DNA of 64,000 nt from Alphaproteobacteria bacterium. GTDB lineage: Bacteria > Pseudomonadota > Alphaproteobacteria > Micropepsales > Micropepsaceae. Shown here one piece after another: positions 1 to 15,737 of the stretch; the stretch's first letter is position 1; the number at the start of each line of letters is the position of its first letter. A program made the translations under genes and the position numbers. Where the stretch lies: contig JAFAWQ010000003.1 in NCBI GenBank assembly GCA_019241645.1, forward strand, positions 124,001-188,000, in the 5' to 3' direction. The notes beneath the pieces were generated by a model that had not been told where the DNA came from, did not search any database, and saw only the letters and a program-made list of their open reading frames with translations.

Positions 1-3000
1 GAAGAAGAGCCGTTCGCAGGGCGACGAAAACCTTGCGCGTCTGACCGAGGGTCGTATTGAAATTGCCCCAGGCGCTGACAATGCCATCGGCAATCAGCGT
101 GTTCATCTGCCTGGCATCGGTGAGGCCGGTTTTGACGGTAGCGAGAGCCTGAGCCGCCTTCTCCAAGGTCTCGACCATTTTTTGATCGCCGATGGAGGCG
201 GCTACGGATTGTGCGATCGGTAGAACTTGTCGAAGCGTCTCCCCAAGTTCCGCCACTTTCTTTTTCAGCGCATCGACTTCTTCTGCAGAGGAGCCATCGG
301 AGAACGCGCGTTGCAGTTCCTGCGCCGCAGTCGTGTATTGCTCCGACAGAGCGGAAATCTGTTGTATGACCGTCTGCGCGTTCTGAGCCTGGTGGCTTAT
401 GTCATAGTAGTAGCCTGCCGCTTGTTTCAGGGAATCGAGCACTCCAGGAGGGAAGCCGCCGCCGGCGTCAGCGAATTTTTTCGTCCACTCGCTGATCTGT
501 TTTTGGATGAATAGGGACCGCTCGGCGCCTTCGCCGTACAGACGAGCCGCCATCGAGGCGTCCTGTGCTGCTTTGGCGTCGTCCTGCCACGCCTTGATCT
601 GATCGTTCAGATCGGTCGTGACCTTCTCTATTTGGGTCTCGCCGGTCGAAAGAATAGGGGACGCCCCACCCATTTTTGTCGCGGCAAAGTTCAAAACATC
701 CGCAACAGTCCGACCTCCGCCGAGGATGGACGGGTTTGAGCGAGTAGCCGAAGCGCCAGCGATCTTCGACGCCAGCTCATCCGGGTTGGCGAGAATCATT
801 TTGATCGCGCCGGACGCTCCGAGAAAATGCGCAAGATAGGTGTTTGCCGCCGTAACCGGAACACCGGCTAGCGCGAGTGCGACTTGGTTCTGCCGGGTAA
901 AAGCTTCCAGAACTTGCCGAGCCGCGTCAGCGTTGGCGCGTTGCGCCAGCTTCGCCTGTTCGGTCCAGTCCGCCAATTTCGGAAAGACCTGATCGAATAG
1001 CTGCAGCCAGGTTGCATTCGTGAATTGGCCGATGCCGAACGCGGAGGAGTTAGGATTCCTCGCCGTGACTTTGCCGCCACTCTCGACATAGATTATGCGT
1101 TCGATGATCGCCTTGTTATCGACAGGGAATGCCGACGCAGCGTCCTTCGCAGCCAGCGCGTGAACCTTGGCGACGACTTCGCTGTACATCTGTATCGCGC
1201 GAGCGAGAAGAACAGGGTCGTTCGCCGCCTGGTCTATAAGTTTCAGGAAAATGGTGGTGGCTTTATTGATTTGGTCTTCAAAACCGAATTGCTTCTTTAG
1301 GTCGGGTGCTATGTCGCCCAATGATCGCAGTGTATCTGCAAAACCTTCGGCGGAATCCCGCGCCTTGTCGAAGCCTGTCGAGGCGTCAAGACCAAGTGTC
1401 TTCAGGTCTCCGGGTGTTCCTTTGCCGCGGGAAAGGCGCAGTTCGGCTTCACCTTCTTTGACGGCTTTAAGCAACTCGCCGTATTTCTTCGCAATGTCGA
1501 GCAATTGGGCCGCGAAATCCTGGTATTGAGGATTCGCTACTCCGAAATCGCTTACTGCTTTCCTGAACTCCTCATAAGAAGCCTTGCCCCTCCGAAACTT
1601 GTCGATGATGGAATCGAGTTTCTTGCCAAGAGCATCCTGTTCAAAGACGGGAACATCGGAACCCGTGCTAACGACTTGCGGCACTGAGGGTAGGTTGTTT
1701 TGCGCCGTCGCGAGTTCGTTCTTGAGTTTCGTCAGGTTGGCGAGAATCTGGACTTCCGTAACGTCCTTGATCTTCTTCGCCCAATTCTCGACCTTTCCCG
1801 CAGCCTCGTCGTAGCCCTCTTTGATTTTTTCGAGGTGACGAGCGTGCTCGTCGAGCGCGGCAGTAGCGCCATCGACACTTGTAATCCACTTCCCCAGAAC
1901 GGTTTCGAGCGCGAAAGCGACTCCGGTGATGATGAGTCCGGTGCCACCGCCAATCGCCGCCCAGAACGCCCGGGCCGCCGCCGCCACAGTGCCGAACTTG
2001 CCAACGAGTCCGAGCAGCCAAAGGTCGATCTTCACCGCCAGCCACGCCTTGAAAGCTGTCGTAATGAGACCGAAGTTTCGAACGACGATCGGAACGAGTG
2101 AAATTATTCTCCCGAGCAACGCCCCCAACTGCGTGAAAAATCGTCGCGCATCGTCGGTCTGTAGGTACTTGTTCAGTTGGGCGATACCGACGCCGAGTTG
2201 TGAAATGAACCCGCCTTGCCCGATTGAGATGGCCGCCTGTTCCATAAGCGCCCGCAGCCGGCCAATCTGGGCCTGCGTGGTCCCCAACGCTGCGGGAAGT
2301 TGCTTGCCGTACTTCTCATCCAGCTTGTCGGCGAGTTTACCGAGGGTATCCTGGTCGGCGAAAATTTCGCCCTGACGCATCATCTTGTCGAGCTTGGCCG
2401 TGGACACGCCCAACGCATCGGCGAAGATTTGGAACGCGCCGGAAAGCCGGTCGCCCAACTGTCGCCGCAATTCTTCCGATTGAACCTTACCCTTCGAAAT
2501 CATCTGCGTCAGCGCGAGGAAGACGCCTGACACCTGTTCCGTAGAAAGCTGTGCTACCCGGCCAGCTTCGGCGACGGACAAGAAGATGCGTCGGGTTTGC
2601 GCGGTGCTGAAGTTCGCGGCTTGTGCGGCAATGGCGAATTTCGAATACTCACCCAACAACACGGAGAAGGAAATACCAAGTCGAATCGATTGCTCGCGCA
2701 ACCATGCGATATCGGCGCCCACCTTCTGCGTGTCGCCATTGAAGGCGACCGCCAAACGGTTCTGTGCGCCTTGGAAACTCTGATAGGCCGTGAGCACGGA
2801 TCCGATGGCGTTAATCAGACCGTAAGGACCAATGAACCCGAACACCATCGACAAGAGTTCGTAACGGAACAGACGAATAGCTTGCGCGATGCCTGCCGAA
2901 CGATCACCGAACGCTGCGGTCGCCGCTGTCGCCCGTTGTGCGGCGCTCGGCATCGCAAAGAACGCAGCCGTGGTTTCCTTTAGTTGTGTCCACAGGGAGC

Positions 3001-3655
3001 GGGTTCCCGCAGCGGCTTGTTGGGCCGCAGGCGCGATAGGTGGTAACGAACTGGCGAGACGACGGACGCCTTCGGCGGCTTGTTGAAGTTGCTGCGGACT
3101 TACCGACCCGGCCCCAATGGCGAACGTCGCCGCAGATCCCGCAGCGCCGGCGGATGAACGCATCTGTTGCAGCGTCGTCGCGGACTTAGCGAGTGCGGCT
3201 TGCTGCGCGGTAATCGACGACGTGAGTTGCTTCGCCTGGACCGACAGTCTCGCCTGTTCGGCCGTCACGCCTTCAAGGCGAAGCTTATACGACTCTGCGT
3301 TCTTTCCGCCCGCAGCAATTGTCGTGTTCAGAGTTGCGGCGGCTCGCTCCGCCGCCTCCATTTGCACCTTGACCGCGGAGAGCTGAGCTTCCGTCTCGGC
3401 GAGATTTTTCTGCTGTTTAGCTAACGATGCAGCCGCCTTATCGACGGCTGAATCGGTCTTCTGAACAGCACCTACGAGTCCGAGACTCGCTACCTTCAAT
3501 TGTTCGAGCAGCGATGACGTAGCGCCGCTGCTCGAACTTAGCTTTTCTTGCGCTCCGGTGAGGGTCTTGATGGCGTCGGCGACCGTGAGAATAGCCTTAC
3601 CGGCTTCCTCTCGGGCCTTGATGACCATTGTGACATCAGTCTGTCGTCCGGTCAT
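1..3655 (-). CDS. Phage tail tape-measure protein with internal lytic transglycosylase-like motif (partial, runs off left edge)
   Basis: Long minus-strand frame missing from the ORF track because it has no stop in the window. Starts MTGRQTDVTMVIKAREEAGKAIL at 3655 (TGATG overlap with the upstream stop). Has coiled-coil regions, 'QLGDRLSGAFQIFADALGVSTAKLDKMMRQGEIF' tape-measure motif, and 'IIYVESGGKVTARNPNSSAFGIGQFTNATWLQLF' SLT-like motif near 1084 in the same phase. Confidence 0.85.
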   Translation of the reverse strand, partial: MTGRQTDVTMVIKAREEAGKAILTVADAIKTLTGAQEKLSSSSGATSSLLEQLKVASLGLVGAVQKTDSAVDKAAASLAKQQKNLAETEAQLSAVKVQMEAAERAAATLNTTIAAGGKNAESYKLRLEGVTAEQARLSVQAKQLTSSITAQQAALAKSATTLQQMRSSAGAAGSAATFAIGAGSVSPQQLQQAAEGVRRLASSLPPIAPAAQQAAAGTRSLWTQLKETTAAFFAMPSAAQRATAATAAFGDRSAGIAQAIRLFRYELLSMVFGFIGPYGLINAIGSVLTAYQSFQGAQNRLAVAFNGDTQKVGADIAWLREQSIRLGISFSVLLGEYSKFAIAAQAANFSTAQTRRIFLSVAEAGRVAQLSTEQVSGVFLALTQMISKGKVQSEELRRQLGDRLSGAFQIFADALGVSTAKLDKMMRQGEIFADQDTLGKLADKLDEKYGKQLPAALGTTQAQIGRLRALMEQAAISIGQGGFISQLGVGIAQLNKYLQTDDARRFFTQLGALLGRIISLVPIVVRNFGLITTAFKAWLAVKIDLWLLGLVGKFGTVAAAARAFWAAIGGGTGLIITGVAFALETVLGKWITSVDGATAALDEHARHLEKIKEGYDEAAGKVENWAKKIKDVTEVQILANLTKLKNELATAQNNLPSVPQVVSTGSDVPVFEQDALGKKLDSIIDKFRRGKASYEEFRKAVSDFGVANPQYQDFAAQLLDIAKKYGELLKAVKEGEAELRLSRGKGTPGDLKTLGLDASTGFDKARDSAEGFADTLRSLGDIAPDLKKQFGFEDQINKATTIFLKLIDQAANDPVLLARAIQMYSEVVAKVHALAAKDAASAFPVDNKAIIERIIYVESGGKVTARNPNSSAFGIGQFTNATWLQLFDQVFPKLADWTEQAKLAQRANADAARQVLEAFTRQNQVALALAGVPVTAANTYLAHFLGASGAIKMILANPDELASKIAGASATRSNPSILGGGRTVADVLNFAATKMGGASPILSTGETQIEKVTTDLNDQIKAWQDDAKAAQDASMAARLYGEGAERSLFIQKQISEWTKKFADAGGGFPPGVLDSLKQAAGYYYDISHQAQNAQTVIQQISALSEQYTTAAQELQRAFSDGSSAEEVDALKKKVAELGETLRQVLPIAQSVAASIGDQKMVETLEKAAQALATVKTGLTDARQMNTLIADGIVSAWGNFNTTLGQTRKVFVALRTALL

Positions 3656-4215
3656 CAATGCCTCCGATGGTTGGTGCGCCGACGTGCGACGCGTTGTGGT
3701 GTTGCCATCGCGGGAAACAAATTGATCCCGCGGGCGAGACATGCCTTCATCACCCGTTCCCGTGCGATGGGCTCTAAAAACTTACCAAGATTGCTTTGCT
3801 GTTCCGCCGATACAGCGAGCTTCGAGATAATTCGGCCCCAGCCAAACAGACGGATCGTTGGCTCAACGATCAGCGCAAAAAGCGAGAAGGACAGGCCGGC
3901 CGGTAGCCTGCCGATATGGCCGTGGGCATCAGGCTCCATTGTGCCAAAAGCGATGACATGCGGGACAATAACGACCAGCGCTTCGGCTAACTCTTGCGCT
4001 GCTGAAGGTAAGTTGGCGGCCGGAATATGAACCTCGTCGAGATACCGAGCAAAACGGTCAAGAATGCCGCCAAGACGTGGCGCCAAGAGCGCGACAATTT
4101 CGTCCAGTTCATGCTCAGATAGCGAGCGAAACAGGATAACCTCGTCGTTTACTATTAAGGTATCGACATGTGGCTGCGCACCGTCCGCCACTCCGAATTT
4201 TGCTGGATTGCTCAT
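3655..4215 (-). CDS. Hypothetical protein, possibly tail assembly chaperone-like
   Basis: 186 aa; lies directly between the primase gene and the tape-measure gene with 1-4 nt overlaps. 'NDEVILFRSLSEHELDEIVALL' is weakly chaperone-like. Confidence 0.6.
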   Translation of the reverse strand: MSNPAKFGVADGAQPHVDTLIVNDEVILFRSLSEHELDEIVALLAPRLGGILDRFARYLDEVHIPAANLPSAAQELAEALVVIVPHVIAFGTMEPDAHGHIGRLPAGLSFSLFALIVEPTIRLFGWGRIISKLAVSAEQQSNLGKFLEPIARERVMKACLARGINLFPAMATPQRVARRRTNHRRH

Positions 4216-6626
4216 GCGGCGTCGTCCAGCTCATCGAAGCCATCATGATCGGACTGAACGACAAGCCCGATGATCCGACGGCCGCTTTTTCTACTCGGAT
4301 CCCGCCGCAGTCCCGGTCGCTGTAGCACTTGGCGTGAAAACATCGGTTTTGATGGCGCGGTCATACCTTCCCTGCCGCAGAACCACCGGTAGCTTAAATA
4401 GGCATCTTCGATCTTCGTGCGAGCAGAGGAGTCGAGTACACAGCACTCTGTTAGCCACGCGCCCAGAATGTCCGTTTCTTCGCGATACGCGGTTGCACGG
4501 GCGCGGATCTCAGTCGGAACTTGCAGCCCGCAACGCTGCCATTCCAGGCAGCCTTGCAATGCCCAGTTCAAAACGCCGGGCAGTTCCGTTGCGATTATCT
4601 GCCTATCTAAATCTGGGATCTGGCTTTCCATTGCGAGCTGTTGTGCGAACTCAATCGGCACCAGCCGCCGCCAAAAACCGTCAGAGTTGTCCAACACACC
4701 GGGGAGATGGTTTCCCCGGATCCATAACTTGTGTGTGGGCACGAAGGAAAACGCTTCGGAATACAGCTTCCGAGCCGCAATGCGCTCCCGCGACGCAAGG
4801 TCTTTAACGCGTTTGTCGTCGAAAACATCGCCCTGCCGAGTCTCGTTGGCTAACACGAGGCGGGCGCCCGGCAGCGTCGCCAGCAAACGATCGCTTTCGT
4901 TTTCGTTTCGCGACTTCGTGAGAAGACCGGCGCCGACGGTCACGGCATAGTCGCCTAGAAGCGAGGAGACGACATTCGCTAGTACGGACTTGCCATTCGC
5001 GCCGACGCCGTACGCAAAGAAGAGCTTTTCCTCGTCAATGTTGCCCGTGAGCGTGTATCCGATCGCCCGCTGTAGAAAATTGCGGATCTCTAGTTGCGGC
5101 TGCACGTCTTCCAGAAACCGCAACCATCGGGGGCACGCTGCGATTGGATCGAAAACCGCCCCTGCTTGCTTCGAAACCATTTGTGAGGGCGCCGGCGAAA
5201 TCAATCGTCCGAGCCGGAGATCGATTACCCCGTTTTTGACACCCAACAGCATCGAGTCGGTGTCGAAGTCATCGGGCAAACGCGCCATTGCCGGAACCGA
5301 ACGCGCCATGCTGAGAACGGACTGAAGACGCGAGCCATCGCGGTTCAACCGCAGCGCATAAGCCAGGTGGGCCTTGTTGCGCTCGTTGGGATTCTCCCCG
5401 ACCGCAGATGCGGCTGCACTGAGTAATTTTTTCGCCAGAATTTTTGCGGCCTCGACCTCTTCGCCACGGCTGCACTCTTCCCATCGCGTGCCACTCCATC
5501 GCAGCCACTGCTTGTGGGAGTAGATGTGAAGAAATTTGTTTTGATAAACACGGGCGAAGCGTTGACCTGCATCGAGATCGCCCGCAGCGGTCTTCATCGC
5601 TTTGTCCGAAGGAACAACGGCAATTTGCAAAGGGTCGCCTAGAAGGTCTTCCTCGTCGGCCGGCAGCTCGTCGAACATCTCGGCAATCTCGACGGCGTAC
5701 GCAGCTGCCTTGAGCGTCGCCATGCTGAGCGGGTTGGGACTGCCGTTAAATGACTTCCAGACACGTCTCGAATCGGTCTCGTCGAATTTGGAGGATTGAG
5801 AGGCCCATTCGCACCACAGGTCGTAACCGCTTTCACCAAATTCGTTATGCAGACACATTCCCGCGGTTACCCATTTGCCTCTATCCTCCCCCCATTCCTC
5901 GAACGGTAGTTTGTCGAGAATGCGTTTTGCTTCCTTGATCGTCAGTCCCAATTTGTTGTCACTGGGGATGTGATTCCGATCGTCGGAAGGCAGAGCACCC
6001 CATGATTGAACGAGTTCGGCGCTCAATGTGGGCGCGCAGCCGAGTTCAATTGCGTCGAAATCCAGTGCCTTTAACCAGCGATAAGGCTTGCCAGTGATCG
6101 GATGGATGGATGGCGGGACGACGATGTTTTTTCCCGAGCCATAAATTGCAATCTCCCAGCACCAAGGGGACTTGCCAGCGTAATTCGTGTGTTCCGTCGA
6201 GCGAGCGATCTGTTTCGACCGGCAGGGTTTGTCGAGGAAGAAATAGACATGGCGTGACGAACCCCCAGACCCGCTCTGTACTGTTGGTGCGCGCCGCCAT
6301 TCAGGCCAACTCTTATCGAGCCAGGCATATGCTTCGGCCGCTTTGGCCTCCTCCCGCACGTCCAAATCCAGGACATGAATGAAGGCACCCCCGACATGCG
6401 AATAAGATCCAGGCCGGATGCCAACATTGAAGCCGGCTCGATAACTCCGCCGGAGCGATTCTGGTGTCTGTATGGGCGCGTTCGGCCATCCTTTATCAAC
6501 GGGGACCTTGTCATTGGGACGCAACCAGTGAACCGCAAACCCTATCGTGGACAGCGATAGCGCCGCGTCGAGGATGGAATCGAGTGCGCGCAGTCTCGCG
6601 GAAGGCTTTGAGCTCGCATGGCGCAT
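4212..6626 (-). CDS. Bifunctional PrimPol / P4-D5 family primase-helicase
   Basis: N-terminal PrimPol motifs (HVLDLDV; SGSGGSSRHVYFF; VVPPSIHPITGKPYRW), PriCT-like middle, D5_N (FLQRAIGYTLTGN), Walker A GVGANGKSVLANVV. Confidence 0.92.
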   Translation of the reverse strand: MRHASSKPSARLRALDSILDAALSLSTIGFAVHWLRPNDKVPVDKGWPNAPIQTPESLRRSYRAGFNVGIRPGSYSHVGGAFIHVLDLDVREEAKAAEAYAWLDKSWPEWRRAPTVQSGSGGSSRHVYFFLDKPCRSKQIARSTEHTNYAGKSPWCWEIAIYGSGKNIVVPPSIHPITGKPYRWLKALDFDAIELGCAPTLSAELVQSWGALPSDDRNHIPSDNKLGLTIKEAKRILDKLPFEEWGEDRGKWVTAGMCLHNEFGESGYDLWCEWASQSSKFDETDSRRVWKSFNGSPNPLSMATLKAAAYAVEIAEMFDELPADEEDLLGDPLQIAVVPSDKAMKTAAGDLDAGQRFARVYQNKFLHIYSHKQWLRWSGTRWEECSRGEEVEAAKILAKKLLSAAASAVGENPNERNKAHLAYALRLNRDGSRLQSVLSMARSVPAMARLPDDFDTDSMLLGVKNGVIDLRLGRLISPAPSQMVSKQAGAVFDPIAACPRWLRFLEDVQPQLEIRNFLQRAIGYTLTGNIDEEKLFFAYGVGANGKSVLANVVSSLLGDYAVTVGAGLLTKSRNENESDRLLATLPGARLVLANETRQGDVFDDKRVKDLASRERIAARKLYSEAFSFVPTHKLWIRGNHLPGVLDNSDGFWRRLVPIEFAQQLAMESQIPDLDRQIIATELPGVLNWALQGCLEWQRCGLQVPTEIRARATAYREETDILGAWLTECCVLDSSARTKIEDAYLSYRWFCGREGMTAPSKPMFSRQVLQRPGLRRDPSRKSGRRIIGLVVQSDHDGFDELDDAA

Positions 6627-7810: not shown

Positions 7811-8157
7811 ATTAGGTCCTCAAACGACGAATCGGACGACGTTTGGAACGGATATCTTGGCTGCGGCCATGTCTCGGGCTTTGGTTCAACTGGCGACGTG
7901 CCGCCGCTATCTCGTCGCCATACTTTCGTTGCCTCTTCGGCGACCTTTTCCCAGCCGGAATCTAGGACCTCGATGGCACCAGCTTCGAGAAGACGTTGCA
8001 CAACGGCGGGATCATCGATTTCGAATTGGCTTCCAGGTTTGTGAAGGTCAACCTTTGGTGCGAAGCGCACACGGCCGTCCACGTCGAGGCTTCCGGTTGG
8101 AACGAGAACCGCGTTTGGACTGTACTGAATTGCGTGAATAGCTCGGACTTTTGTCAC
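7807..8157 (-). CDS. Hypothetical protein of the phage/satellite operon
   Basis: 116 aa; 4-nt overlaps with both neighbours. Confidence 0.65.
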   Translation of the reverse strand: MTKVRAIHAIQYSPNAVLVPTGSLDVDGRVRFAPKVDLHKPGSQFEIDDPAVVQRLLEAGAIEVLDSGWEKVAEEATKVWRRDSGGTSPVEPKPETWPQPRYPFQTSSDSSFEDLI

Positions 8158-8816
8158 GACGAGGCTCCTTCAGTGGCGGTGACGAGGAGTCGGGCCGTTT
8201 CGTCGGCGACGGCCTCGGGGAAAGCGGTATCCGTCAAGCGCTCGGGTCGGACAAAAAACGTCAGGCCCTTGCGAAACCTGTCCGCGACGAATGTCCCCGA
8301 AAATTCATCCGGAAACTCATCCGGGGAAACGACAGCTTGTACATGCGTAATACCGCGCGCGAGGCCATCGGCCGCCGCCAGAGACACGACATAAGAAGCG
8401 AGAGCATCGAGGCCGTCCTTTATTGCCCGTGCAGCGTCAGACCGGATTTCTGAAGCCGCCGCGAACGCATGATGCGCGATACGCTGCTCGACTTCAGTGA
8501 GGATTTTCTTCAACTCCGTCTCACGGTCTTGCGACAGGGTGATTGCCGCAGGAAGGGGCTCACGTTCGGCTTTGATCTCGAGCAATTCCTTTCGACGCTT
8601 TGCATTTGGTGGTGCCGTTTCTTCACCATCCAACAATCGAAGCGCGGCCTCATGAGACTCCGCTTGCAGTAGCGCAGCCTCCCTATTCCCCAACTTGGCA
8701 TCACGTTCTTGGAGCGATTGTGTGGTCCCAGCCTGCTTTTCGATCTGTTGCAAAATCGCAGACTTCGCTTTCAGCTCGCTCCGTAGCTCGCTTAGCCAGC
8801 GGCTGTCAGTGACCAT
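8154..8816 (-). CDS. Hypothetical coiled-coil protein
   Basis: 220 aa; Glu/Lys/Ala-rich N-terminal half; overlaps both neighbouring genes. Confidence 0.65.
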   Translation of the reverse strand: MVTDSRWLSELRSELKAKSAILQQIEKQAGTTQSLQERDAKLGNREAALLQAESHEAALRLLDGEETAPPNAKRRKELLEIKAEREPLPAAITLSQDRETELKKILTEVEQRIAHHAFAAASEIRSDAARAIKDGLDALASYVVSLAAADGLARGITHVQAVVSPDEFPDEFSGTFVADRFRKGLTFFVRPERLTDTAFPEAVADETARLLVTATEGASS

Positions 8817-9063
8817 CGGATTCTCCTGTGGTTTTCGTGCGCGCCGCAGCCCAGGTCTCTAGGCTGTTCTCACCTGTAAGCGGGTAGACGACCCGTCGAC
8901 CGTTCGGCGGTAGGGAAATGAACGGTGGCGACTTTTCCGGGTGATACAGCCGCAGCTTCTGCAGGTACGACACAGAAACACCGAGCCGTTGGGCAATGGT
9001 CCTAGTGTCGGCAAATTCAGGGCACGCCATGCGTCCTCGCAGTTCGTTTCGCGAGACGATCAT
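8806..9063 (-). CDS. MerR/excisionase-like helix-turn-helix protein
   Basis: 85 aa; 'TRTIAQRLGVSVSYLQKLRLYHPEKSPPFISLPPNGRRVVYPL' winged-HTH pattern; first gene of the minus-strand train. Confidence 0.65.
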   Translation of the reverse strand: MIVSRNELRGRMACPEFADTRTIAQRLGVSVSYLQKLRLYHPEKSPPFISLPPNGRRVVYPLTGENSLETWAAARTKTTGESDGH

Positions 9064-9962: not shown

Positions 9963-10160
9963 ATGTCCGAATCGGCAACCCGATTGCTTCGTCTTCCGGA
10001 AGTATTGAAGCGCACCGGTTTAGGCAAAACCGCAACGTATGCGCTGATGAAAGACGGCACCTTCCCAAAGCCTGTCTCACTTACTGACACTCGCGTCGCC
10101 TGGGTTGAGTCTGAAATAGAAGAATGGCTGCAGCAAAAAATTCGCGATCGGGGCTTGTAA
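9963..10160 (+). CDS. AlpA family phage transcriptional regulator
   Basis: 65 aa; 'LLRLPEVLKRTGLGKTATYALMKDGTFPKPVSLTDTRVAWVESEIEEWLQQKI' is classic AlpA. Confidence 0.92.
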   Translation: MSESATRLLRLPEVLKRTGLGKTATYALMKDGTFPKPVSLTDTRVAWVESEIEEWLQQKIRDRGL

Positions 10161-12393: not shown

Positions 12394-12588
12394 CTCCGAT
12401 GCTCATCATCCGGCGCGCACTTATTCGTCTTACCCCGGCCCCCCGAATCAAAGCGCGGGTCCTGCTGCCCCTTAGCCCGTTCCCCTCCACAACGGACCCG
12501 CTAGGGATGTTGATGACAACAGCATAGTCTCCTCCCCTGTTTCGGTGTGCTCCGGCCAAGGTGGCAACCAAGCGGGAGGGGGAATAGG

Positions 12589-13080
12589 ATGGAACAGACT
12601 GTCGAAGGTCGAACAGGGGGGCAGCTCGCGGACAATTCATTTTCGCCCCTCAAGATAGCGGCGGCGCTCGCGGCATTTTTTGGTCTGATCGGCGTCAGCA
12701 TTTACTGGAGTCGAGATCCAGAACCGACCGCAATTGAGAAGCAAGCGGAACAGGAAAGAATAATGCAGGCGGATATTGCGTATCGACTGGCGCAGGAAGA
12801 AGCGCCTTTGATTGCTCGTGCCAAAGCATCTGTTCTTCGAACGCTACGCGATCCCGGTAGCGCAGAATTCGGTCGTGTCAGCGTCAGGTACTGTCGCGAA
12901 CTCGATTGCAAGGAAGGCGAGCCAGCGCATGGAACGCCTATGGTCTGTGGCGGCGTGAATGCGAAAAGCGGATTTGGCGGGTATACAGGTTTCAAGGTTT
13001 TTATCTACGGAAACGGAAAGCTAATCCCGCCAGGCGTCGCAGAAGAACACCCCCTTCTTGCCGCAAAGATTTGTTTATAG
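12589..13080 (+). CDS. Membrane-anchored hypothetical protein upstream of the NACHT gene
   Basis: One TM (IAAALAAFFGLIGVSIYW), then 'LRDPGSAEFGRVSV...VCGGVNAKSGFGGYTGFKVFIY', a recurring small-domain pattern. Confidence 0.75.
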   Translation: MEQTVEGRTGGQLADNSFSPLKIAAALAAFFGLIGVSIYWSRDPEPTAIEKQAEQERIMQADIAYRLAQEEAPLIARAKASVLRTLRDPGSAEFGRVSVRYCRELDCKEGEPAHGTPMVCGGVNAKSGFGGYTGFKVFIYGNGKLIPPGVAEEHPLLAAKICL

Positions 13081-13100
13081 GTGGAGGAGGAACATATTGA

Positions 13101-15524
13101 ATGAGCACATTTGACCTTCAAAATCCCGCACCGAAGCCGGGAGACGCTCTGCGCGACGAAGCCGCAAATTTGTTAGCGACGCGATTTGGAACACCCCTCC
13201 GTGAAGCACGAACGATGGGAAAGAAAAGCGATCTATATTTTCAGCGACGGGATTTCGGCAAGACGGTCAAAATCTACGTAGAAGCGAAGGATCATGGCGG
13301 TCCTCTGACGCGCTCAGAGTGTGTGAACGTATGGTCCGACTACTCCGGTATTGTCGTGAAAAACGCTCCCGCTGAACTACTTCTCGTCACTAGGGCGGGC
13401 TTAACGTCCGATGCTCAGGAGTTCGTTCTCAACGAACAGTCCGCAATGCGACATCAGACAATTTGGGAGCTAGAAAATGAAACGCTTGGTCTAACCGAAT
13501 ATGTCCGAACGTTAGCTGAGTTATTCAGTGAAGACGGTTTGGACCACTATTACGTCGAAGGACGCGCCCGCAGAGCCTCCTATTCATCTGACCATCAGTT
13601 GCGTTCTGTCGGTGCTGAAGATGTGGAAATATTCGGTTCGATACTTGCATGGCTTACAAGCGATGATCCGCAGCCCGTTGCCGTCTTAGGTGGATACGGT
13701 GCTGGAAAGAGTAGCTTAGCGAAGCGCTTGGTTAGCCATCTCGCAAAACAGGCCCTGATTGATCCGCTCACTCGTCGGCCCGTCCTGATAAAGCTTGGTG
13801 TGCTCTCTAGGTATTCCAGTTTGGAAGGCTTGCTCGGCGGTATGTTTACATACGAGTTCCCCGTGGATGGCTTTAGTGTCCGGCAGTTTATGATGCTCAA
13901 CAAGAAAGGTCGTCTTGCGGTCGTTCTTGATGGGTTTGATGAGATGAAGCACGCGATGAGTTGGGCAGACTTCCGCTCGCAGATCACGGACCTAAACAAA
14001 CTGACAGAGGGAGCAGCTAAAGTTGTACTTTTAGGTAGGCCAAGCGCGTTTCTCTCCGATGACGAACATATCCATATCCTACGTGGCGTTAAAAGGATGG
14101 GTGACGGCTGGAGACGCTTACCTAATTGGCCAGAATTTCATGAGTACGATCTGCAGGATTTTTCGGCGTCAGAACGGGCCGACTTCGTCAAGAGATATCT
14201 CACATATCGGGCCTCGACTGTCAGTACCACCCAAAAGCTCCCTGAAGCTTGGGTTGAAACGCGTGCTCAAGAGGTCAATCAGCTCGCAACGCGCGGCCAA
14301 GATATTTTTCAAAAGCCCGTTCATGCAAAAATCCTGACGGACCTTGCGTCGGATCCGAAGGTTTCCCTCACAAAGTTTTCGCACAACATCACAAGTTGGC
14401 AACTGTACGAAATGTTCTTCTCCACCCTTGCGGAACGCGAGGTTCAAAAGGAGGCGCGTCGTGACATTGACGAAAATAGCCGCCTCGAATTTTTGAGGGC
14501 GGTCGCATTTTGGATGTGGACCCACAAGTCAGGCGTGACTCACTTTAATGCGTCAGATTTACCAGATGAACTCGTAGCGGCGCTTCCTTCTGGTGGGGCG
14601 GCCGATCTGGAGTCCAAGAAGCGAGAATATTTGTCTGGATCATTTCTGGAACGCAAAGGTGGGGACATTTATTACTTTGCCCATCGCTCATTCGCTGAGT
14701 TCTTGGTGGCCTATAGAATGCTATTGCGTTCTCCCACGGCCGGCGAACAAGGACAGTATTCTGATCTTAGCAAAGACGGCGTCCTCAACTTCTTGCTAGA
14801 GTTCCCGAAACGCGAGAGCCTAGCCAATTGGATTGGAACGTTAGGGGAGGCAAAGGGGCACATTTCTCTGGAATATTTAGCTCTGTTGGCCGACGCGGTA
14901 GGTGGTATCAGCCAGCTACTTTCGCGCTTGCCTGATAATTCCCCTTGGCGCTCTTTGATCGCTCTATTCGGAGAAAAAATTGAATTCAGGGAGGGTCTCG
15001 ACAAAGAAATATTGAGTCGGATGAGCAGCCCGGACAACCAAACTTTTTTTCTCCTGCTTTCGGTTCTGCAAGCCTACCTAGCTGCTCACGATCAAACGGC
15101 TCACAAAAGCATGAGCAAGTATGCTGTAGAACTTGCGGCTGTGCTGCTCAACAGAGTGTTTCACTCAGCGAAAGTCCATGAGCAGTCTGCTCACGCACGT
15201 TTGGACGACACCTACAAGGAGGCTTTGGATCTGGCAGCCGAGGTGCTCCCTGCAGTCAAGCAAGACCACCATGGCAAGCGAATCGTGTTTCGCGGAGGGT
15301 CCTTGTTGCAGAGAAAAGGCGAGAGCATCAAAACCCTTGGCGCGGATGTTGGGCTTCGATCTCGGGCAATTATGAAATTGCCGGTCGAAATACTCGAACT
15401 TTCATTCGATCATGTTCTAGACGCTATGTTGCCTCGTAATTCGGAGAAGGCCACACAGTATTTCCGCAGGGCTAAGAACTTGAAAGGCGCCTTTGTTACT
15501 TCCACTGCGAGAATCGGATCCTAG
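13101..15524 (+). CDS. PD-(D/E)XK nuclease-NACHT STAND NTPase, candidate anti-phage protein
   Basis: N-term E...KKSDLYFQ...IYVEAKDHGG (E/D-ExK Mrr-like); Walker A GGYGAGKSSLAKRL; NACHT Walker B VVLDGFDEM; sensor VVLLGRP; 'YYFAHRSFAEFLVAYRML' post-NACHT motif; RBS ggtggaggagg. Confidence 0.85.
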   Translation: MSTFDLQNPAPKPGDALRDEAANLLATRFGTPLREARTMGKKSDLYFQRRDFGKTVKIYVEAKDHGGPLTRSECVNVWSDYSGIVVKNAPAELLLVTRAGLTSDAQEFVLNEQSAMRHQTIWELENETLGLTEYVRTLAELFSEDGLDHYYVEGRARRASYSSDHQLRSVGAEDVEIFGSILAWLTSDDPQPVAVLGGYGAGKSSLAKRLVSHLAKQALIDPLTRRPVLIKLGVLSRYSSLEGLLGGMFTYEFPVDGFSVRQFMMLNKKGRLAVVLDGFDEMKHAMSWADFRSQITDLNKLTEGAAKVVLLGRPSAFLSDDEHIHILRGVKRMGDGWRRLPNWPEFHEYDLQDFSASERADFVKRYLTYRASTVSTTQKLPEAWVETRAQEVNQLATRGQDIFQKPVHAKILTDLASDPKVSLTKFSHNITSWQLYEMFFSTLAEREVQKEARRDIDENSRLEFLRAVAFWMWTHKSGVTHFNASDLPDELVAALPSGGAADLESKKREYLSGSFLERKGGDIYYFAHRSFAEFLVAYRMLLRSPTAGEQGQYSDLSKDGVLNFLLEFPKRESLANWIGTLGEAKGHISLEYLALLADAVGGISQLLSRLPDNSPWRSLIALFGEKIEFREGLDKEILSRMSSPDNQTFFLLLSVLQAYLAAHDQTAHKSMSKYAVELAAVLLNRVFHSAKVHEQSAHARLDDTYKEALDLAAEVLPAVKQDHHGKRIVFRGGSLLQRKGESIKTLGADVGLRSRAIMKLPVEILELSFDHVLDAMLPRNSEKATQYFRRAKNLKGAFVTSTARIGS

Positions 15525-15638: not shown

Positions 15639-15660
15639 AACCCTAACTATCTGAAATGAA

Positions 15661-15737
15661 TGGCGCACCCGGAAGGATTCGAACCTCCGACCCCCAGATT
15701 CGTAGTCTGGTGCTCTATCCAGCTGAGCTACGGGTGC
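15661..15737 (-). tRNA. tRNA-Arg(ACG), CCA encoded
   Basis: Minus strand GCACCCGTAGCTCAGCTGGATAGAGCACCAGACTACGAATCTGG...GGTTCGAATCCTTCCGGGTGCGCCA; acceptor, anticodon (loop CTACGAA) and T arms pair. Confidence 0.97.

Follow-up and report, generated by a model that had tools for sequence, protein, structure and literature searches.

A nuclease-NACHT gene, probably a stand-alone defence gene, as cargo at one end of a phage-like element integrated in a tRNA gene of a Micropepsaceae bacterium

Introduction

In the stretch of alphaproteobacterial DNA analysed here (64,000 nucleotides of contig JAFAWQ010000003.1, hereafter the window), a gene for a small membrane protein is followed on the same strand by a gene combining a nuclease-like N-terminus with a NACHT NTPase, which lies in turn beside a tRNA gene. 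The first-pass annotation regarded the two genes as a candidate defence locus in which the membrane protein could be a partner not described for this class. The locus therefore raises the questions of whether the NACHT protein is a defence protein, whether it acts with its neighbor, and what the adjacent tRNA gene signifies. The features concerned are as follows.

12589..13080, + strand: 163-aa one-TM protein of a phrog_2320-like family (phrog_2320, E 7e-14)
13101..15524, + strand: nuclease-NACHT protein, 807 aa (ORF call, Pfam, invariant columns, AlphaFold model, Foldseek)
13101..13550, + strand: Mrr-like PD-(D/E)XK nuclease domain, approximately residues 12-150, with D44, E61, and K63 as catalytic residues
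13650..14730, + strand: NACHT NTPase module and winged-helix/HRSF region, approximately residues 184-543
14733..15521, + strand: divergent C-terminal presumed sensor domain, 263 aa (low identity, no Pfam match, confident model)

Domain organization and predicted structure

Both ORFs, the 20-bp gap between them, all motifs quoted in the first-pass annotation, and the nearby tRNA were recovered at the positions given there. The 807-aa ORF is intact, and its match to the Pfam NACHT family (PF05729) scores 27.8 bits against a curated cut-off of 26.7 (E 2.7e-6), with Walker A (GGYGAGKSS, K203), Walker B (LDGFDEM, D277/D280/E281), and the sensor motif LLGRP (R313) all in place. The Mrr_cat match of this protein alone is weak (E 0.059); across the family, Mrr_cat was detected in 18 of 21 members, with a best E of 9.5e-10, and NACHT PF05729 in all 21, which bears out the Mrr-like nuclease N-terminus and NACHT core proposed for this gene. 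Two sets of residues, D44, E61, and K63 of the nuclease and K203, D277, D280, E281, and R313 of the NACHT module, are invariant in the 21 full-length sequences, and the invariant columns of this alignment include YG.GK.S (Walker A), LDGFDEMKHAM (Walker B), and GRP (sensor motif), a pattern that points to purifying selection acting on nuclease and switch alike.

The AlphaFold model of the 807-aa protein has a mean pLDDT of 86 and shows an alpha/beta core in the nuclease domain; judged from sequence and model, the D-ExK motif on the core fold that marks the PD-(D/E)XK/Mrr superfamily is present. Foldseek searches with this model ranked the mammalian proteins NOD2, NLRP3, and NLRC4 first (E down to 1e-11) and also matched the bacterial Avs4 (8dgf, E 3e-8); full-length TM-scores of these matches were low (approximately 0.37), as expected because the core alone is common to both proteins in each comparison.

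Past the conserved HRSF motif, the C-terminus comprises approximately 260 aa without recognised repeats, and its 263 residues agree with the modest length of around 250 aa originally claimed. While whole-protein identity to the relatives is 24-52%, it is only 13-32% in these 263 residues, which have no Pfam family and no NCH or SNaCT match. A search of 17 C-termini of the family against the NCH families detected none at E<=1, using a Pfam copy that includes NCH2 (PF22727) and in which the presence of the NCH1 model is uncertain; NCH2 was found in neither the source genome nor the controls. Modelling of the C-terminus, which had been asked for in the first-pass annotation, gave a confident structure for the isolated domain (pLDDT 87, pTM 0.86), for which no PDB fold match was detected at E<=1. 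A PDB sequence search with the single protein returned nothing, and the S100B matches of a PDB profile search were chance matches only. As a fast-evolving region behind a conserved effector and a conserved switch, the C-terminus would be the sensor of the protein. It is conceivable, though we rate it below an even chance, that these approximately 260 residues form an undescribed compact sensor fold and provide a route of phage-signal recognition that is new for NACHT/Avs proteins.

Distribution of the NACHT family

A genome scan revealed relatives encoded at 31 genomic loci in Alpha-, Beta-, and Gammaproteobacteria, with best-segment identities of 26-62%, an observation far beyond chance. Further relatives were found in a plasmid search (Streptomyces, Rhizobium, Azospirillum, Bosea, and others), and three more in a scan of viral contigs. 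The source genome has a single copy of the gene, no relative was detected in any of the 59 same-genus genomes tested, and one class-level genome gave a marginal match. The distribution of the family is thus patchy and mobile, with relatives on plasmids and viral contigs and none among these 59 genomes. Three Brevundimonas genomes have an apparently truncated relative of 260 aa with 61% identity (L013, L014, and L015, approximately 8070-8852), probably a decayed copy.

Regarding genomic context, PADLOC analysis of 99 neighbors of the relatives detected GajA, GajB, a CBASS cyclase, CapP, a type II restriction enzyme with its methylase, and IetA. The genes for GajA and GajB, which together constitute Gabija, are located upstream of the relative at locus L002, which is among the closest (52% identical). 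In the same 99 neighbors, Pfam identified five phage integrases and three rve transposases. Most neighbors are not known defence genes, and one check found none in nine of ten cases. The defence genes near relatives are suggestive of a defence role, the counts being made without a random background and hence not a measure of enrichment.

Some loci have features of their own. In a betaproteobacterial MAG, the NACHT relative is preceded at a distance of 1.1 kb by 26 tRNA genes in an array (L024:4166-6825), which hints at a phage or integrative element that carries a tRNA set of its own. At three loci (L021:4872-7955, L029:4058-7864, and L031:4042-7866), an ORF of 1000-1270 aa precedes the NACHT relative on the same strand at a distance of 25-128 bp; this ORF is common to L029 and L031, both of which are Bradyrhizobium loci.

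The upstream one-TM protein

The small protein is encoded by an ORF of 163 aa from the ATG at 12589, or 177 aa from the GTG at 12547, whose stop ends at 13080. It has one strong hydrophobic segment (peak Kyte-Doolittle value 1.94), in agreement with one TM helix, and is one of a small family of proteins that share the motif CGxVNxKxxFGGYxGF. A role as tether, sensor, or inhibitor of the NACHT protein, confined to this lineage, could be envisaged from the shared strand and the 20-bp gap, which contains a GGAGG-type ribosome-binding site and would allow co-transcription in the source strain. Against such a role, no relative of the small protein was detected in 38 loci around NACHT relatives (a weaker result where upstream flanks are short, e.g., L027 and L017), and neighbors vary from locus to locus, with no other neighbor family shared beyond close relatives. 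The small protein's own relatives are found elsewhere, on plasmids from hosts such as Shewanella, Bradyrhizobium, and Sphingopyxis; five of their loci were inspected, and none has a NACHT relative. Phage records and viral contigs yielded no match to the small protein. Conservation of the upstream gene with the NACHT gene had been named in the first-pass annotation as a check of the pairing, and its absence at all NACHT-family loci fetched leads us to reject the two-gene system, a joint function in this lineage alone being quite improbable. The pairing is most likely incidental, a matter of chance neighbors, and the NACHT gene is a single-gene system. The membrane partner, from which most of the claimed novelty of the locus derived, is not supported and should be dropped unless experiment revives it. 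On a Sphingopyxis plasmid, approximately 1.3 kb separates a relative of the small protein (L045:738-4393) from the anti-phage genes QatA/QatB.

The tRNA gene and the integrated element

The tRNA gene noted beside the NACHT gene proved to be an attachment site, a meaning that had been missed in the first-pass annotation. The following features of the window belong to this part of the locus.

15661..15737, - strand: tRNA-Arg(ACG), integration target (ARAGORN)
15660..15708, no strand: attR, 49 bp identical to attL (perfect repeat)
9963..10160, + strand: AlpA/excisionase-like regulator of the element (phrog_2790, E 5e-13)
4212..6626, - strand: phage primase-helicase of the element (phrog_1156, E 1e-127)
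1..3781, - strand: tape-measure-like protein, assigned by reading the sequence and not by family search

The attL copy (C51:114242-114290) is located 9.8 kb left of the window, has 0 mismatches to the 3' part of tRNA-Arg, and lies 25.4 kb from attR; a gene for a tyrosine integrase (L038:10390-11721; phrog_1, E 1e-47) starts 100 bp inside it. Because 49-bp direct repeats are present at the 3' end of the tRNA, with an integrase beside attL, a phage-like element of 25.4 kb has integrated here, with the tRNA-Arg gene as its att site. The G+C content of this interval is 52-59%, against mostly 60-66% on either side. The tape-measure-like frame is open over 1473 aa and runs on to the left of the window (L040:11360-15781). 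No capsid, portal, or terminase was recognised in the ten larger element ORFs scanned with PHROGs, and the element could therefore be a prophage remnant or satellite.

The NACHT gene is the last before attR and thus cargo at the attR end of the element; given this position and its own G+C content of 51%, it may have entered the element as a later acquisition. Inside the element there is also a gene for a 519-aa sensor histidine kinase (L038:17593-19152) with a membrane part that appears MHYT-like by eye, an unusual cargo for a phage-like element. To the left of attL is a gene for a 635-aa TPR-like protein of a large paralogous family (L038:8221-10128), to which approximately 30 stretches, many in tandem, match in one same-genus genome (G004).

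Comparison with known systems

The architecture itself is already known: bNACHT25 and bNACHT32 are PD-(D/E)XK-NACHT proteins with demonstrated phage defence, in which protection requires D48 of the nuclease and infection leads to DNA degradation (PMC12169576). Compared by architecture, the present protein shares with these members of bNACHT clade 6 an N-terminal PD-(D/E)XK nuclease and a central NACHT module; D48 is a catalytic aspartate in those proteins, and D44 is invariant in the present family. Among the features that define bNACHT proteins, a NACHT match above the cut-off with all motifs and the order effector, NACHT, C-terminal domain (presumably the sensor) are found here. Clade 6 has the C-terminal helical domain NCH1, whereas the present family has no NCH or SNaCT match in Pfam.

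Avs4 likewise joins a nuclease effector to a STAND NTPase and was matched by Foldseek; however, its C-terminal sensor is long, and the whole protein runs to approximately 1540 residues. This large sensor is absent from the 807-aa protein, for which no Avs model was among the PADLOC matches at E<=1. DS-8 (DefensePredictor) is a single-protein defence system that also has a NACHT domain, but its effector is a metallophosphatase (PMC13092281) and not an Mrr-like nuclease; identity with DS-8 was rejected, the NCBIfam match covering the NACHT domain only and scoring 17.7 bits where the cut-off is 790. No model of the named PADLOC or NCBIfam defence families scored above its cut-off for the 807-aa protein. 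Mammalian NLRs (NOD2, NLRP3, NLRC4) share the NACHT domain and the helical/winged-helix core that follows it; they have CARD/PYD domains where the present protein has a nuclease, and no leucine-rich repeats were recognised in the latter.

Discussion

There is good support for reading the gene product as a defence protein that joins a nuclease to NACHT and has a short C-terminus, and the gene is real and probably functional. We consider it likely that it encodes a stand-alone NLR-like defence protein, consisting of an Mrr-type PD-(D/E)XK DNase, a NACHT module, and a short C-terminal sensor, carried as cargo of the element. Its function would most likely be that of a phage-sensing, self-destructive DNase, an infection-activated nuclease being proposed because bNACHT25 and bNACHT32 have the same order of effector and switch. 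In the proposed mechanism, we infer phage defence, oligomerisation, the DNase output, and the trigger: the NACHT module would hold the protein inactive in the ADP state until the C-terminal domain recognises a phage-induced signal, directly or via a host protein; exchange for ATP would let the NACHT modules oligomerise and bring the nuclease domains together; and the resulting DNA degradation would end the infection by sacrificing the cell, or halt the phage.

The protein could instead serve the mobile element, excluding or destroying rival plasmids or phages or acting in post-segregational killing, in place of serving the host. The cargo position at the attR edge would suit such a role, as would relatives on conjugative plasmids, one of them beside repABC genes; yet the family has no conserved immunity or antitoxin gene, and relatives also occur near ordinary defence systems, so that we regard service to the element as unlikely to be the explanation, though it is compatible with the main one. 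Even less probable is a STAND NTPase that acts in regulation or DNA repair and has no part in defence, since the sporadic, mobile distribution and the invariant nuclease triad better fit a conflict system.

Regarding the stand-alone defence protein preferred here, nuclease-NACHT defence proteins now extend to a family in Alpha-, Beta-, and Gammaproteobacteria and on Streptomyces plasmids, and the presence of such a gene in a phage-like element integrated at a tRNA is in line with the idea that host defences travel on mobile elements. With its conserved effector and switch and its short, fast-diverging C-terminus, the protein offers a compact model for studying how infection is recognised by a NACHT protein whose sensor is short.
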